IMG/VR virus record: IMGVR_UViG_3300028571_000139
Coordinates: 1-22,011 of that record
Length of the DNA: 22,011 bases
Strand: one strand, 5' to 3'
DNA from: a virus
Made by a program: the position numbers and the translations under genes. The notes beneath the pieces are model-generated. The model did not search any database. It had not been told where the DNA came from and saw only the letters and a list, made by a program, of their open reading frames with translations. This document shows, one piece after another, positions 10,867 through 18,288 of the stretch (the stretch's first letter is position 1; every line of letters starts with the position of its first letter).

Positions 10867-10912
10867 ACTTTTATATACAAGAATATTTCGTATAAAGGAG
10901 ATTTACCTATGA
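10826..10912 (+). CDS. Possible 28-codon leader ORF coupled to DarB-like gene
   Basis: A GTG at 10826 opens a frame that ends in TGA at 10910-10912, overlapping the ATG of the DarB-like gene (ATGA). The peptide starts MTIGRVRVGNLTSILLY. AAAGGACACAAGA precedes it, the same 13 bases that precede the 7056 start codon, followed in both by CC-RTGAC. It could be a translational-coupling leader or the relic of a duplicated gene start. The stop/start overlap favours real coupling, but a 28-codon frame may arise by chance. Confidence 0.25.
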   Translation: MTIGRVRVGNLTSILLYTRIFRIKEIYL

Positions 10913-13900
10913 ATTTATCAGAAGCATATCAGCAGATTAACGATGCGACATCATTTCTGGATTACGCAAAAGTATTCAAAGAGTTGTTCGGGACTGTAGT
11001 GCCCGGTCAGGAGCCGCCTGTCAACCCAGACTCTTACAAGGACGAAAACAGCGATTACGGCCTAAAGGCAAAAGGCATTAAAGCCCGTGAAAAGTTGAAT
11101 GCCGACTGCAAAGAAATCCTTGACCGAGTGAAAGACCCGAAAGACCTTACCCGTGCTGACATTGAGGTATTGCGACAGTACAGTGGTAAAGGTGGGCTTG
11201 CTGAAGGAAGTCAGTACGAATATTACACGCCACAACATGTCGCAGAGGGGTGCTGGGACTCACTGGCAGCGCAAGGGTTCACAGCAGGTAATGTGCTAGA
11301 CCCATCAACCGGCGCGGGAATGTTTGAGGCGACCAAGAACAAATCTGCAATTATAACCGGATGCGATCTTGATAAAACCAGTTCACGTATTGCACAACTC
11401 CTGCATCCAGAAGAGCAAATTGAAAACAAGCCCTTTGAACAACTTGCGGTTGAAACGCCTGATAATACATTTGACGCCGTTATTACCAACGTGCCGTTCG
11501 GTTCAGCCCGTGGCAAATCTCAGCATCTTGATCCTGATTATAAGAGCGAAAAGAAAATTGAGCGGTATTTCATTCTCCGAGCACTTCAAAAGCTAAAGCC
11601 TGGAGGGCTCGCTGTTTTCGTGTGCCCGGTCAACATAGTAGGAGCAAAAGACGGGCAGTTTGCTAAATGGCGCACTCAGATATCAAAAATTGCTGAATTC
11701 ATGGGAGCGCATAAACTCCCCTCCAAGACCTTCAAAGACCAAGGAACCGATACCGTGGTTGATGTAGTGGTATTTAGGAAACACCCTGAAAGTCTATTGT
11801 CCAAGATTGATAGTATACCATTTGATACCTTGAAATCTGCCAACGTGGCATGGGATGAATTTATTAGCGGCTTATGGTGGCAGGGCGAAGGAAAGAAGTA
11901 CATCATGGGTACCTATATTCCGAAAGTTGATGGTGACCGTTGGAGCCGTGAAACCGTTGACGGTGACATTGACAATGCCAGCTTAAAAGCTAAACTTGCC
12001 GCAAAATTCAACAGCCGTATTGACTGGGCAATGCTTGAAGATGCCGAGCCGGTACAACGTCTGTATGCGGAAGGCGACCGAAAAGTAATGAACAGCTCCG
12101 AGTATGAATTTACACACGGACAATGGATAAAGATAGTTTCCAGTGACAAGTCAACCCCGATTGACAAGGATAAGTACGGAGCCGCTACAGTTGAAGAGCT
12201 ACGGAGTATCCTGCAAGACCCTCGCGCTTGCATGGGATTAACAGCACAACAGGCATTTGCTGCATGGAAAACATACCCTAACCTTATGGGCTCACTTCCC
12301 TCTCAGGCGATTGAATTCACCATGAGACAATCGAAAGTCGAATACCAGGAGCAACTCTGGAGAGGTTCGCTTATCGGCGGCATGATAGGCAGATATGATG
12401 CTTCCACAAAAGAAGGTGACAACAACGAAGATGAGCGAATTGCGCTGCAAGAACTGGTAGCGCAAGAGGTTATGAAATATGGGCACCCTGCCAACAATAA
12501 AGGGTTATCGGTTATTGGTGAAGATGCCAGAATGTACGGTCTATTCAAAAGTTCGCTTGATGTGAAGGGTAACTATTCCGATCTGCTGGCAGGCACAATG
12601 GATAACAGTGGGCGCAACTTGCAATTTGACCCTACGAATATTCAATCTATTGTGGAATACCTGTTTATCCGCGAAGGCCTGACGACGATAACCATTGACG
12701 ACGTAAAGGCGATGTACACCGGTGGCAAGAAGATCGAAACGCTTGGCGATCTTGCTGAGTGCGAAGAAATCTGTATTACGCCGGACGGGCTTATTATGCC
12801 GGTTTCCCGCTATACCGCTGGCGATATTTATCCCAAGATTGATGCTATGACCCTTGCAATAGGGATAGAAACAGATCAACGGATTATCTCTGCATATCAG
12901 CGGCAGATTGAGGCAATCGGCAAAAAGGCGAAGATCACACAGCTTCACGAAATTGATTTCACGCTTCAACAGAAGTGGATTCCAAAAGAGATGATCAGGG
13001 ACTTTTTAAAAGACTCCGGACATGAAGCGCGTTATGGCACTATCCAGAAAGTGAAACGTGTTGACGCGCTCACTGGAATAGAATCTGAGGTTGATGAGTT
13101 TGTCGAGGATTACAGCAACCCCTTTGGAGAGTGGCAAATTGCCGGAATGTCTGGCAGGGGCTACAGCCAGAAAGTTGACTTTGATAAAAAAATAGGCGGT
13201 TTCCCTTACAACCTTGAAAAGTACCTGAACGGCAAAAGCATACTTGACCACGTTGAAAAAGATGATGATGCCAAACGTGAAGCGTATATGCGCGACAAAA
13301 AGGCACTGGAAGATGGATTATCAGCTTATATATCAGGGCACCCAGATATTGAAACCGTGCTGGCAAGCTACAACCGCAAAATGAACGGGTATATCCCTTT
13401 CGATTACGATGAAAGCGACTTAGGGTTAAAGGGCGTTTCCGGGCAAGTTAAGCTGCACACCTACCAGAACGCTGCGGTACGGCGGATGAGTGAAGAGGGG
13501 AGCGGAATTTTAGCCTTTAATGTTGGCTTGGGCAAGAGTTTCACCGCGTTGGGGCTTGCCAAATATAACACGCAAATGGGGCGCTCAAAGCGTACCTGTA
13601 TTATAGTCCCTTCTTCGGTATTATCAAACTGGTATCACGAAGCTAAGATGATTTATGGCAACCTTGACCATGCTCTTTTTGTCGGCATCAGGCCAGAAGT
13701 AGGCAAGGATGGTAATATTCAGCGCGAAAGCATCCTTGACGAATGGGGACAGCCAAAAACCGGGAAAGATGGCAAGCCGCTGTTGCAGGATACCCTAAAA
13801 ACCGATAACGACGCGGAGGCGGTTTATAATGCTATGTGGCAGATACCACAATCCAATTATTCACTTATCGTGATGACAAAAGACCGCTTCGGACAGATAC

Positions 13901-16900
13901 CGCTTAAAAAGGAAAGCAAGGACGCTTATTCTGAATTGATGGCGGCTGACCTGAAAAACAGCGCAGAAAAACTTGCAGCAATGGATAAAAAGAAGAAAAA
14001 AGGGGGGTATGCCGGAGCTGTAGAAGATGAGCGCAATGAGGGCAAATTTTCAAATGATGGCACGAAAAAGCGGGGGGACTTCCCGTTTTTTGAGGATATG
14101 GGAATCACGGATGTCGTTGTAGATGAGGCGCATTGTTTTACCTACGACACAGAGATTACCACCATTGACGGAGTGTTTAAAATCGGTGATTTATGCGAAA
14201 AGCGCATGAATACAAAAATACTTGGAATGAATACTGAAAATGGTATACTGTCATACCAGCCGATAAAAGCATGGATGCCTAAACCACTATTAAAACAACT
14301 GGTGGAGGTTGCCCACGATAACGGCTCATTCATCTGCACAAGAGATCATCTTGTATGGACACTGGAGGCTGGTTATGTCGAAGCTGGAAAATTATCTGGT
14401 AAACACTCATTGCAAATATTGCAAAGTGGAGTTGCCGGAAACCAAGAGATTGAGGATGTTCTGTACACAGACGTGTGCGAAGAAGTGGACAACGGAAATC
14501 GGACTGGAAGAGAGAACGTGTCAAAATTGCGGAAAGACTTTCTCTGTGAAGCTGACTCTGGATCACGAACGGGAAAAGAGGTTTTGCAACACGGAATGTT
14601 CGGCTCTGTGGCGGATGAATTTACCAGAATCGAAGGAGCTGCACAGACAGATAATGACGGGGCAAACGTGGCTCAGGGGGCGCAAGAGTCCATCATCATC
14701 GGCACGGATGACGGCCAACAATCCAATGAAGAACTTGGAGTCACGGGAGAAAATGAGCCTGACCTTGCGGGGGATCGAGATCAAGAGCCGGGGCGGAAAC
14801 GGGAAGGGTCTGACCGTACCTCAATCGATGCTGGCGCGGGCAATGGACGGGGCAACGGAATACATAGTCAGAACACAGTCAATCAGATCAGTAATGCAGG
14901 GGTTGCCGACTTGCTACAAGATAGATGTGGCCTTCCCAAAATGCATGCTGGCGGTGGAAATCGACGGGAGCGGACACAAGGCGGCGAAAGTACAGGAGCG
15001 GGATCGGAAGAAAGAAGCTGCATTACAAGCTCTAGGGTGGTCAGTGTTACGATTTTGGAACCATCAGATTTTGAACGACTTGGACTCGGTGATCCAAGAA
15101 ATATCCAAGTCTATGATATTGAAGTAGCTGAGAATCACAACTTCTTTGCTAATGGGGTTCTTGCTCACAACTGTTTTAAGAATGGAGTTTCAGCATCCGG
15201 TGCTTACGATCAGAAATATTACCTGCCGAATACCGCCCCGTCAAACCGTGCTGTTGATATGGCAATGAAGTTGCACAACCTGAAGATGAACAATAACGGG
15301 CGTGGGGCATATTTCTTGACAGCAACTCCGATAACCAACAGCTTAAATGAAGTCTACACCATGTTGAATCACGTTGCACCCCGTAATGAATTTACCGATA
15401 GGGGTATTCATACCCTTGATGATTTCCTTGCAACATTTGGGCAATTCGACAGTGTGGCCAAGGTGCTTGCAAGCGGAGATATAAACAACGCCGAAGGTTT
15501 AACCGGCTTCAAAAATATGGATGGTTTACGCGATCTGTTTTTCAAATACATCAACATGAAAGACGCAACCCAGGTTGAAGAGTTGCGTAACTCTATGCCG
15601 GAAGCGGTGAAACTAACAGATGAAGTTGACATAAATTTTGAACAGAGAAAAGTCTATGCGACCCTTGTCGATGCATACAATGACAAGACACGACCGCTCT
15701 TCTCGATCATGCGTGACATGGACAAGGCGACCACAGACCTTGACCTGTATTACAATCGTATGACGTGGCACTTTCCATTATCCATGAAGGGGAACGTAGA
15801 GGCCATGCTGAAAAGCCTCCCCGCAAGCATCAAGGCAAAGGGCAAGGCTGAGCCAGGCGATGAGGGGTATGACGACACCAAAGATGCTGAGTCACAGAAA
15901 ATAGTTGAAACAACTATTAACCTTGCCGACACGCTGAAAACCTCCATTGATGGTGACACGTTTGTCGTTGTAACCCATGCTGGTTATGAAGAAGAGATTC
16001 TGGGAGCCTTGCCGACTCATAAGATTTCAGAAGAGGAAATATCTCATCCTATTTCCGCCAAGTATGCACGGCTTATTGAAAACTGCAAAACTGAAATGGA
16101 AACAAACGGGAAGCAGATTATTTTCAGTGAGGAAAAAGCACAACACAAGAAGATTGTCCGTCTGTTGGTTCATCAGATTCCGGCACTGCGTAACAAAGTA
16201 GGTATCATTAACGCAACCGAAGCAAAGGGCAACGAATTACAAAAAATAAGCGATGCCTATAACACCGGCATACTGGTTTATATTATAGCAAACCGCAAAG
16301 CAGAAGTGGGCGTGAACCTCCAGAAGGGCACTACCGCCATTCATCACATGACCTACCCCTGGACTAAGGCCAGTTTGACGCAGCGCGAAGGGCGCGGAGT
16401 CCGGCAGGGTAATACATCAAAAAAGGTCACCATTTATTACTACCAGGCCAAGGGTACCATTGACATGATGCGACTTGACCTGATTGAACATAAAGGGGCA
16501 CTGATAGACGATATCGCGCAAGGTCAGGGTAACCGTGCTGCAAACGGCGAAGCTGATCCCGAAATGGCGGCGCTGATGTTTGCCGCTAATCCTGAAGAGG
16601 CAAGAAAAAAGATTCAGGAGCAGCTTGCAGCAAAAGCAAAAGGCGAAGCTGATAGACTGAAAGCATCACTACTTGCGCAGTTTGGGGCGTATTCTGCAAA
16701 TATGCAGGCACTGTCTACTCTGGAAAGCAAAAGGGAAACCGAGCGCAAGGAGTTGATGGATAAGATAACTGGATTGAAAGCAGATATTGAGGAATATAAA
16801 GCACGAGGTGCCGCAATGCCAGAAGGCAGTTCAGGCCGTGTAAGTGCCTCTCAAAGGGTACAGCGCGAAACCGAAGCTCTCGCTAAACGTGAAGCTGAAC

Positions 16901-18288
16901 TTGCAAACCTTGATATCCGCTTTGACCAGAACAAAACGAAGCTGGAGGGGAATATCAAACGAGCCTCAAGCACCCTGAAAGCGGCAGCCAACAACGGCAC
17001 TTTACCGGTTGACGCCTCTTTGCTGGATCATCCTGAGGATGTACTTGTGACCGCCGATGGTTCGCAGGTTATCGGCAAGGGTGATATGTACGAAGTAACG
17101 CGGTATACTGGAGCAATCTCTTGCATTATTAAGATCGTATCTGTTGCCAATGGCTTGGCAGTAAATGGTGTAACGATACCGTATAAAGGTTTCAAATTTG
17201 AACAGTTGACTGGAAAACCGGCAAACAGCTACAGCAACAACCTCCCGCAACGCATGAGCAAAGACAGTAACGACATGGTCACGCTGTCACGGTTCCTTGA
17301 TAAAAACAGCAGTGAGCCGATGCCGGTACGTTGTTCATATTCTGAAAAAGAGATTGAGATTCAGCAGAAGCTTTCACAGCCATTCACCGATTATGCAAAG
17401 CTGAAAGAACTGGATAAGGACTTTTTCGCGGAATATTATAACAAGATGAGCTTTTCAGGCATGTACGGCTTTGTTGGCAGGGACGCAAGCGGGACAATCG
17501 GCTTATATGAAAGAATGGCTGAAGGTGTGACAATAGTCTATCCCGACACTGAGAATGAAAACTTGCGTAAGGCAGTAGGCACGGCGGCTCTTGCAGAAAA
17601 ACGAAGTACAACAGGTGTGGGGTATTGGAGTAAAAATACTCTGCGTACATTCTTTGGAGCAAACTGGGAGTCCGCAATCGCCGAATATGGCACAAAGACA
17701 ACTCAGGCAGAAGTGCTGGCAGCTTGCGAAAAGGCTTGGAAGCGCGAAACTATAAATGATGGTTACAGCGAACGTCAATTATCAGAAATGCCGTCGTCAT
17801 GGACAAACGGAGTCTGGTCTGTAATATCCAGCGAAGTAAACCTCCTTGGCGACAATAAAGAAGAGATCGGTTCATGGTTTAGAGAATTCCGCGACACTAC
17901 CACAATGCATCTCTTAGGCATTCGCGAACAAGGAAGGGTCGAAGCCGAAAAAGCTAAGCTCGACGCACTCCGCGATCATCCTGACTTCAAAGAGATTCCT
18001 GAAGCCACAAAACAGGCGTTCGACAAATTGGGGATTACCGTTAAGACCAATACCGGTAACTTGGTAATGCCCGGCTTCAAAGGACGTAGCACTACCGCTC
18101 CGGCTTTTTCTCGGTGGTATTTCCAGGACAGAGACGGTAAAAACGGCAAGTTGTATCGCATGAGAGAGCAGCTTAAAGGTCAATTCAAGGCTGAATATTT
18201 TGCGGATGCTGGCGGGGAATTCAATGGGTCATGGTGGCACGTTGACGCAAAAACCGACCTTGCAAGAATTTATGAACTACTGGCATAA
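10909..18288 (+). CDS. DarB-like DNA methyltransferase-helicase with intein
   Basis: A 2459-residue precursor (2113 after splicing) resembling P1 DarB, a virion-carried anti-restriction protein. The N-terminal part is an adenine-methyltransferase fold: VLDPSTGAG (residues 129-137, SAM binding) and NVPFG at 194-198 in the place of NPPY. Then comes an SNF2/superfamily 2 helicase: GLGKS Walker A at 873-877, DEAH at 1072-1075, LTATP at ~1470, and QREGRGVRQ at 1825. The intein occupies 1076-1421, leaving DEAH-CFKNG after splicing. A coiled coil lies near 1900-2020; the last ~450 residues are unassigned. AAGGAG is eight bases before the ATG. The activity (DNA modification or translocation protecting phage DNA) is inferred from the family. 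Confidence 0.85.
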   Translation: MNLSEAYQQINDATSFLDYAKVFKELFGTVVPGQEPPVNPDSYKDENSDYGLKAKGIKAREKLNADCKEILDRVKDPKDLTRADIEVLRQYSGKGGLAEGSQYEYYTPQHVAEGCWDSLAAQGFTAGNVLDPSTGAGMFEATKNKSAIITGCDLDKTSSRIAQLLHPEEQIENKPFEQLAVETPDNTFDAVITNVPFGSARGKSQHLDPDYKSEKKIERYFILRALQKLKPGGLAVFVCPVNIVGAKDGQFAKWRTQISKIAEFMGAHKLPSKTFKDQGTDTVVDVVVFRKHPESLLSKIDSIPFDTLKSANVAWDEFISGLWWQGEGKKYIMGTYIPKVDGDRWSRETVDGDIDNASLKAKLAAKFNSRIDWAMLEDAEPVQRLYAEGDRKVMNSSEYEFTHGQWIKIVSSDKSTPIDKDKYGAATVEELRSILQDPRACMGLTAQQAFAAWKTYPNLMGSLPSQAIEFTMRQSKVEYQEQLWRGSLIGGMIGRYDASTKEGDNNEDERIALQELVAQEVMKYGHPANNKGLSVIGEDARMYGLFKSSLDVKGNYSDLLAGTMDNSGRNLQFDPTNIQSIVEYLFIREGLTTITIDDVKAMYTGGKKIETLGDLAECEEICITPDGLIMPVSRYTAGDIYPKIDAMTLAIGIETDQRIISAYQRQIEAIGKKAKITQLHEIDFTLQQKWIPKEMIRDFLKDSGHEARYGTIQKVKRVDALTGIESEVDEFVEDYSNPFGEWQIAGMSGRGYSQKVDFDKKIGGFPYNLEKYLNGKSILDHVEKDDDAKREAYMRDKKALEDGLSAYISGHPDIETVLASYNRKMNGYIPFDYDESDLGLKGVSGQVKLHTYQNAAVRRMSEEGSGILAFNVGLGKSFTALGLAKYNTQMGRSKRTCIIVPSSVLSNWYHEAKMIYGNLDHALFVGIRPEVGKDGNIQRESILDEWGQPKTGKDGKPLLQDTLKTDNDAEAVYNAMWQIPQSNYSLIVMTKDRFGQIPLKKESKDAYSELMAADLKNSAEKLAAMDKKKKKGGYAGAVEDERNEGKFSNDGTKKRGDFPFFEDMGITDVVVDEAHCFTYDTEITTIDGVFKIGDLCEKRMNTKILGMNTENGILSYQPIKAWMPKPLLKQLVEVAHDNGSFICTRDHLVWTLEAGYVEAGKLSGKHSLQILQSGVAGNQEIEDVLYTDVCEEVDNGNRTGRENVSKLRKDFLCEADSGSRTGKEVLQHGMFGSVADEFTRIEGAAQTDNDGANVAQGAQESIIIGTDDGQQSNEELGVTGENEPDLAGDRDQEPGRKREGSDRTSIDAGAGNGRGNGIHSQNTVNQISNAGVADLLQDRCGLPKMHAGGGNRRERTQGGESTGAGSEERSCITSSRVVSVTILEPSDFERLGLGDPRNIQVYDIEVAENHNFFANGVLAHNCFKNGVSASGAYDQKYYLPNTAPSNRAVDMAMKLHNLKMNNNGRGAYFLTATPITNSLNEVYTMLNHVAPRNEFTDRGIHTLDDFLATFGQFDSVAKVLASGDINNAEGLTGFKNMDGLRDLFFKYINMKDATQVEELRNSMPEAVKLTDEVDINFEQRKVYATLVDAYNDKTRPLFSIMRDMDKATTDLDLYYNRMTWHFPLSMKGNVEAMLKSLPASIKAKGKAEPGDEGYDDTKDAESQKIVETTINLADTLKTSIDGDTFVVVTHAGYEEEILGALPTHKISEEEISHPISAKYARLIENCKTEMETNGKQIIFSEEKAQHKKIVRLLVHQIPALRNKVGIINATEAKGNELQKISDAYNTGILVYIIANRKAEVGVNLQKGTTAIHHMTYPWTKASLTQREGRGVRQGNTSKKVTIYYYQAKGTIDMMRLDLIEHKGALIDDIAQGQGNRAANGEADPEMAALMFAANPEEARKKIQEQLAAKAKGEADRLKASLLAQFGAYSANMQALSTLESKRETERKELMDKITGLKADIEEYKARGAAMPEGSSGRVSASQRVQRETEALAKREAELANLDIRFDQNKTKLEGNIKRASSTLKAAANNGTLPVDASLLDHPEDVLVTADGSQVIGKGDMYEVTRYTGAISCIIKIVSVANGLAVNGVTIPYKGFKFEQLTGKPANSYSNNLPQRMSKDSNDMVTLSRFLDKNSSEPMPVRCSYSEKEIEIQQKLSQPFTDYAKLKELDKDFFAEYYNKMSFSGMYGFVGRDASGTIGLYERMAEGVTIVYPDTENENLRKAVGTAALAEKRSTTGVGYWSKNTLRTFFGANWESAIAEYGTKTTQAEVLAACEKAWKRETINDGYSERQLSEMPSSWTNGVWSVISSEVNLLGDNKEEIGSWFREFRDTTTMHLLGIREQGRVEAEKAKLDALRDHPDFKEIPEATKQAFDKLGITVKTNTGNLVMPGFKGRSTTAPAFSRWYFQDRDGKNGKLYRMREQLKGQFKAEYFADAGGEFNGSWWHVDAKTDLARIYELLA
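14364..14368 (+). promoter_or_regulatory. Internal ribosome site for nested endonuclease
   Basis: GGAGG sits six bases before the ATG at 14375, inside the intein-coding sequence and just after the codons of intein block B. Spacing and sequence are close to ideal. It decides the nested gene's start over the upstream ATG at 14309, which would place 22 unrelated residues in front of the first zinc-binding unit. Confidence 0.75.
14375..15127 (+). CDS. EDxHD-type homing endonuclease nested out of frame in intein
   Basis: A 250-residue nuclease read in the +1 frame relative to the surrounding intein. Domains in order: a first zinc-finger-like unit, C13-C16-C30-C34; a second, C49-C52-C71-C75; a NUMOD3-like segment at about 115-133 (NNPMKNLESREKMSLTLRG); and a C-terminal Vsr/DUF559-like catalytic core with D184, E195-x-D197, H201 and D210 (VEIDGSGH, then ERDRKKEAALQALG) and the typical GWSVLRFWN ending. 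This matches the EDxHD homing endonuclease class (I-Bth0305I type). It probably cuts an intein-less copy of the darB-like gene at the DEAH site and drives intein spread. It starts right after intein block B and stops 44 bases before the intein end. Confidence 0.88.
   Translation: MSKLENYLVNTHCKYCKVELPETKRLRMFCTQTCAKKWTTEIGLEERTCQNCGKTFSVKLTLDHEREKRFCNTECSALWRMNLPESKELHRQIMTGQTWLRGRKSPSSSARMTANNPMKNLESREKMSLTLRGIEIKSRGGNGKGLTVPQSMLARAMDGATEYIVRTQSIRSVMQGLPTCYKIDVAFPKCMLAVEIDGSGHKAAKVQERDRKKEAALQALGWSVLRFWNHQILNDLDSVIQEISKSMILK

Follow-up and report, generated by a model that had tools for sequence, protein, structure and literature searches.

We analyzed a 22,011-nucleotide stretch of viral DNA (IMG/VR record IMGVR_UViG_3300028571_000139, positions 1 to 22,011; referred to as the window), in which all features described here lie on the plus strand. 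The gene at 10909..18288 encodes a 2459-aa protein combining an N6-methylase with an SNF2-type helicase, of the DarB-like antirestriction family. It matches N6_Mtase, SNF2-rel_dom and Helicase_C in Pfam and the DarB-like and DNA methyltransferase groups in PHROG, and tblastn reaches DarB of P1, P7 and D6. Its DarB-like sequence occupies 10909-14133 and 15172-18288, on either side of the insert. This host gene carries a 346-aa intein (Cys1 to Asn346, 14134..15171) between DEAH of motif II and C-FKN, in the context VVVDEAH↓C...N↓CFKNG (arrows mark intein boundaries). The boundary codons are TGT for Cys1 (14134-14136), AAC for Asn346 (15169-15171) and TGT for Cys+1 (15172-15174), the C-extein nucleophile, which is found as C347 in at least 90% of relatives. 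The N-terminal splicing half (residues 1-100, 14134..14433) holds block A with Cys1 and block B with C68-T69-x-x-H72; the C-terminal half (residues 291-346, 15004..15171) holds block F, VYDIEVAENHNFFANG, and block G, LAHN. Between the two lies a spacer of residues 101-290 (14434..15003), overprinted by an endonuclease gene, predicted to be unstructured and only kept free of stops. Intein profiles for the N- and C-terminal splicing regions flank the nested ORF in the host frame (TIGR01445, E=3e-6; TIGR01443, E=4e-9, in the C-terminal half; and PF14890), and the host frame, which lies one base upstream of the nested frame, is open through all bases of this ORF. The signature of a class 1 intein (Cys1, T69-x-x-H72, Asn346 and Cys+1) is present and conserved across 43 relatives, in which Cys1 and Asn346 are invariant and C68, T69 and H72 are conserved. 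The sequence-only reading had described a contiguous intein that looks competent for splicing; the in-frame blocks and the stop-free host frame across the insert agree with this, and splicing would be in cis.

The nested gene (14375..15127) encodes 250 aa in the +1 frame of the intein, from an ATG at 14375-14377 to a TAG at 15125-15127, with a GGAGG Shine-Dalgarno sequence (14364..14368) 6 nt 5' of the start. Thus, the complete ORF with its own GGAGG and ATG was found exactly as first read. Its product matches DUF559 with E=1.5e-14, better than the Pfam cut-off; DUF559 is present in 67/67 family members. The pattern of catalytic residues, D184 ... E195-x-D197 ... H201 ... D210 (14924..15004), is intact, as the earlier reading had held, and conserved across 67 relatives, with D184, D197, H201 and D210 invariant and E195 present in at least 90%. 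Further upstream, two zinc-binding-type Cys4 clusters (C13, C16, C30, C34 and C49, C52, C71, C75) span 14411..14599, a region with a zf-FCS-like match below the cut-off. Of the eight zinc-type cysteines named in the earlier reading, C49 and C52 of the second cluster are invariant and C71 and C75 occur in at least 90% of the 67 relatives; C13, C16, C30 and C34 are less constant. At 15109..15127 the end of the endonuclease (SMILK and the stop) is dual-coded with block F of the intein (VYDIEV), the same bases serving both translations.

Structure models were obtained for both frames; from each of the underlying alignments, two rows originating from annotated phage records were left out. The AlphaFold model of the endonuclease had a mean pLDDT of 88.7. 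Its first Foldseek hit in the PDB was I-Bth0305I (3r3p; E=1.7e-3, probability 1.00, TM 0.70-0.72 to the target), followed by 3hrl. PDB sequence matches were 3hrl (1.5e-11) and, weakly, 3r3p (3.6e-4). All five catalytic residues align with 3hrl; in the weak 3r3p alignment E195 is aligned, and N and W stand opposite D197 and H201. The search for nuclease similarity proposed at the outset thus returned DUF559 by homology and the catalytic domain of I-Bth0305I as best fold match, and we assign the product to the DUF559/Vsr superfamily of endonucleases, for which cleavage would be the expected activity. For the intein frame, the model evaluated in 10-residue blocks reached a pLDDT of 88-98 for residues 1-100 and 79-97 for the C-terminal half (291-346/347), and about 41-63 for the blocks of residues 101-290 except the last one. 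It gave 51 matches in the PDB at E<=0.001, and those ranked highest were all inteins, with the split intein NrdJ-1 first (HINT fold). Group I introns commonly carry such endonucleases, and the insert could in principle be an intron of group I or II that contains the endonuclease ORF and is removed as RNA, the open host frame being incidental. However, we consider this extremely improbable: in-frame conservation holds for blocks A, B, F and G, which the model places in an intein fold, selection would have no reason to keep stops out of the host frame of an intron, and a search of 13000-16500 for Rfam intron families gave no match at E up to 1.

Next, we looked at how both frames are maintained within the same bases. 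Synonymous recoding of the window endonuclease yields 14.8 expected stops in the intein frame, and permuting only its own codons yields 6.5, with 0 observed; none of 5000 synonymous recodings and 0.02% of the permutations reached zero stops. The stop-free intein frame over the endonuclease, pointed out by the sequence-only reading, is therefore beyond chance. Across nested loci the mean expectation is 13.3 host-frame stops, while split or free-standing copies contain 11 to 34, about as many as expected. Similarly, a T-ending codon before an AA, AG or GA codon was found in 0/6301 cases in nested loci versus 115/402 in split and 87/301 in free-standing ones (29%), and a conserved Tyr is encoded by TAC in all nested loci (103/103) and by TAT in 4/6 split ones.

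The comparison of eight independent pairs of related nested loci gave differences of 117/92/319 at endonuclease codon positions 1/2/3 in the overlap, where endonuclease third positions are intein first positions, and of 54/37/128 at host positions 1/2/3 in the N-terminal splicing region. In most pairs the endonuclease-silent fraction of changes was about twice the neutral expectation or more, and the intein-frame-silent fraction in the overlap lay under expectation. Judged by these substitutions, amino-acid selection in relatives acts on the endonuclease frame in the overlap, and on the host frame in the splicing part. The intein frame in the overlap thus serves as a spacer, predicted to be unstructured, whose sole requirement is the lack of stops. 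The codon-level test of both frames suggested earlier thus speaks for the maintenance of both, with amino-acid selection in the overlap falling to the endonuclease. Selection on the hydropathy of the spacer was not detected against stop-conditioned synonymous recodings, and the idea of a selected hydrophilic or Cys-poor spacer was dropped, as it is no more hydrophilic and, if anything, slightly Cys-richer than such recodings.

To place the window copy in context, phage records, viral contigs and bacterial genomes were scanned. With the window protein alone as query, viral contigs gave one distant locus, and an alignment of phage endonucleases was required to obtain more. The same build was found in 239 locus rows, always at +1, corresponding to 170 distinct loci when endonuclease identity is limited to <98%, and to 129 at <60%. 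Contigs recur among the rows of different scans, and nested members served as seeds of all queries, so that proportions are no population estimates. Both frames are open in the 239 rows, and a stop inside the endonuclease match occurred in 1/256 loci (255/256 free of stops); relatives with a disrupted +1 frame, which would have spoken against the two-frame arrangement, were thus not the pattern observed. These data also bear on the view that a sequencing or assembly frameshift, or decay, put an in-frame endonuclease domain out of frame. Nothing but the frame difference itself speaks for it, and we regard it as having next to no probability, given that isolates, metagenomes and bacterial contigs together supply 170 distinct loci, all at +1 with zero host-frame stops, and that 255/256 endonuclease matches are without stops.

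A classifier was applied to 177 loci, using profiles for the N- and C-terminal intein regions that were derived from the locus set. Here, 151 were nested and had both blocks at +1, 11 rows contained host-frame stops with both blocks still at +1, 10 were open with one block undetected (mostly at contig ends) and 5 had no intein. In addition, a scan based on the catalytic motif only gave 76 nested loci, three open ones with the C block undetected and one with a single stop. Among phage records, tblastn matches of the endonuclease fall in genes annotated as helicase. In seven phages (CP-T1, 1.194.O, 1.088.O, K391, phi673, 104E43.1 and 159E43-1b) the match lies in the +1 frame of the annotated helicase, whose in-frame sequence is DE↓C(F)...HN↓CHH, and in Pseudomonas phage MR14 it is +1 by coordinates. 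Named members include CP-T1 gp10 and Corynebacterium phi673 gp43; in the Vibrio phage CP-T1, for example, the endonuclease is masked by a gene with the annotation 'putative helicase'. The earlier reading knew of no described contiguous intein built this way; the window copy is no singleton but belongs to a large phage family including sequenced isolates.

Insertion sites mostly read DE↓CH and mostly correspond to motif II/Walker B of phage helicases and clamp loaders. Among the scanned C-exteins of host genes were SF2 helicases, a DNA polymerase III gamma/tau-type clamp loader and a single radical SAM protein. As the latter carries a distant nested member at its CxxxCxxC motif (L001, 4628-5653), the family is not confined to Walker B sites. 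The window site, DEAH↓(C/S)(F/Y)KN, is common to L187, L188, L191 and L199, and also to L197 with DEGH. Empty homologues at this site read DEGHNYRN in P1 DarB and DELHEQFKN in L012. For the gene in the window itself, the closest homologues lacking the insert are about 30% identical and no near relative without an intein was found, nor was a near DNA match to the window among phage records. As a separate observation, an antisense frame of Mycobacterium phage Camster gp55 (L007, 4941-5729) distantly matches the window endonuclease (E=2e-6). Antisense nesting in Fishburne-type mycobacteriophages was rejected, as the opposite annotated gene (gp55 in Camster) is probably spurious.

The uniform +1 register has a possible explanation in the genetic code. 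Host-frame stops in this register require an NNT codon with AA, AG or GA after it. As NNT can always be replaced silently by NNC, a stop-free version of any protein exists in the +1 register. Accordingly, unavoidable stops are zero in 122/122 endonucleases at +1 and in only 5/122 at +2, where the other 117/122 have unavoidable stops (mean 2.8). Hence +1 is the only same-strand register that always allows the silent removal of stops, and this constraint, as an explanation drawn from the code, could account for the uniform register. Common descent from one +1 ancestor is an alternative.

Expression of the endonuclease was approached with a fixed start rule (the ATG nearest 5' of the first CxxC), a best-of-several-starts test being weak from multiple choices. 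A Shine-Dalgarno sequence of at least 5 nt was found at 29/72 nested starts versus 4.0% for the remaining ATGs of these genes (p=8e-19), and about 60% of nested starts have none of this length under the fixed rule, so that starts are unsure in many relatives. Translation from an internal start is likely in many members according to these sequence signals. Because of the Shine-Dalgarno enrichment at nested starts, endonuclease output independent of host-protein translation is likely, with a shared transcript still needed. One could also envisage that ribosomes undergo programmed frameshifting out of the intein frame, so that the product is a fusion of N-intein and endonuclease. The frames do differ by +1, and about 27 codons 5' of the ATG are open in the endonuclease frame (stop-free from 14294). 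However, the window has GGAGG 6 nt before the ATG, and Shine-Dalgarno sequences of at least 5 nt at the start by the first zinc cluster occur at ten times the background frequency, so that frameshifting appears rather improbable.

Among Vibrio phages, the distribution of the insert itself is informative. In helicases with C-exteins 83-85% identical, the same gene occurs full, empty or with a mini-intein, all at DE↓CHH. Phage 1.194.O carries a 356-aa nested intein, a precise 1068-bp insertion compared to the empty alleles of 1.251.O and 141E35-1, and L184 and L185 (Vibrio phages 268E42.1 and K457) carry a 150-aa mini-intein without endonuclease at DE↓CHH. The full, empty and mini alleles fit a snapshot of a homing cycle; mobility appears from this pattern in relatives, not for the window copy. 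A non-homing role of the nested endonuclease, such as cleavage of the DNA of competing phages or control of the host gene, is conceivable insofar as DUF559/Vsr-like nucleases are found in other settings, including antiphage proteins (weak NCBIfam matches). Nevertheless, it is unlikely, as the position at the endonuclease site of an intein, the precise presence/absence polymorphism and the mini-intein derivatives are marks of homing, and free-standing copies of the endonuclease are rare in these scans. Besides that, an intein-less helicase (L051, 4890-4930) has four bases (cgga) in place of one codon between DE and HH, causing a frame shift exactly at the family insertion site, with a free-standing family endonuclease directly upstream. 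Either a scar left by repair or an error in sequencing may explain this.

Altogether, the earlier interpretation is supported, and we favor, with a probability of roughly 0.9, a mobile intein with a +1-overprinted homing endonuclease at the usual place between splicing blocks B and F. Reading of the host frame would produce a precursor whose two splicing halves fold around a loop of about 190 unstructured residues, and excision of the intein would release a 2113-aa DarB-like protein. A second initiation at the internal GGAGG/ATG would yield the free 250-aa zinc-finger DUF559/Vsr-like endonuclease. This enzyme may then cut intein-less alleles at the motif II codons, a target suggested by the insertion site only, and repair would copy the intein in.

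Some relatives are split, with N and C halves in separate ORFs (L065, L088/L103, L090/L104, L105, L106, L107 and L108), and here the endonuclease overlaps both intein halves at +1. In a tree of the split loci and 110 nested relatives besides the window, read without inferring a root, six of them (L065, L103 and L105-L108) form one clade (SH-aLRT 99), placed among the diversity of nested forms. Single stops were seen in two further loci: a clamp-loader intein with a nested endonuclease is broken in frame by one TAG (L042, 4186-4188), and L188, with the insertion site of the window, has one TGA in an otherwise open frame. Both look like first steps to the split form, although the TAG in L042 may be either a recent step of this kind or a recoded stop. 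With the endonuclease as a separate gene, the spacer would be free to gain a stop, and a contiguous intein would become split without rearrangement. This nested-to-split route is plausible. We give about even odds to the broader proposal that +1-overprinted DUF559/Vsr-like inteins are a widespread class in phages as well as the source of 'fractured genes'.

The arrangement shares features with several known systems. As in large inteins of the PI-SceI type, the endonuclease lies between blocks B and F, and the element is mobile and occupies a conserved site in the host enzyme. In the PI-SceI type, however, the endonuclease is part of the same polypeptide, whereas in the window it is a separate +1-frame protein and the intein contains a structureless spacer. 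Like the intron-encoded EDxHD homing endonuclease I-Bth0305I (phage group I intron; PDB 3r3p), the window endonuclease has this catalytic-domain fold, but it is nested in an intein. The best structural match of the window intein, NrdJ-1, is a split intein. Fractured genes, which Dassa and colleagues reportedly described in 2009 as split inteins with an intervening endonuclease gene, resemble it in having a free-standing endonuclease between intein halves in phage genes, and one clade of relatives appears to be of this form. In contrast, the host ORF of the window is uninterrupted, so that there is one host gene and splicing would be in cis. In the literature covered, which includes that on non-canonical inteins in part, the nearest published precedent is the ShiLan HNH insert. 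The ShiLan domain and the Pacc40 insert are out-of-frame HNH endonucleases in phage methylase genes; the ShiLan nuclease is in the third frame relative to the host, and its authors detected neither a Shine-Dalgarno sequence nor an intein or intron splicing function (PMC11855218). Common to both cases is an endonuclease hidden out of frame while the host frame is kept open. Unlike ShiLan, the window has intein blocks and an intein fold, a DUF559/Vsr-like nuclease, the +1 frame and a Shine-Dalgarno sequence.

With more than a hundred divergent relatives of this build, inteins with +1-overprinted endonucleases seem to be selfish genes of a widespread kind that has largely been overlooked. They represent a third combination of splicing element and endonuclease, beside in-frame fusion and separate genes, and one which appears to be common yet hidden, as gene callers report the host gene only. 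They also offer a rare, clean case of overprinting, in which one frame carries all amino-acid selection and the other needs only to be free of stops, with a simple candidate reason in the genetic code for the constant +1 register. Finally, they provide a testable route from contiguous to split inteins, the latter being important in protein engineering.
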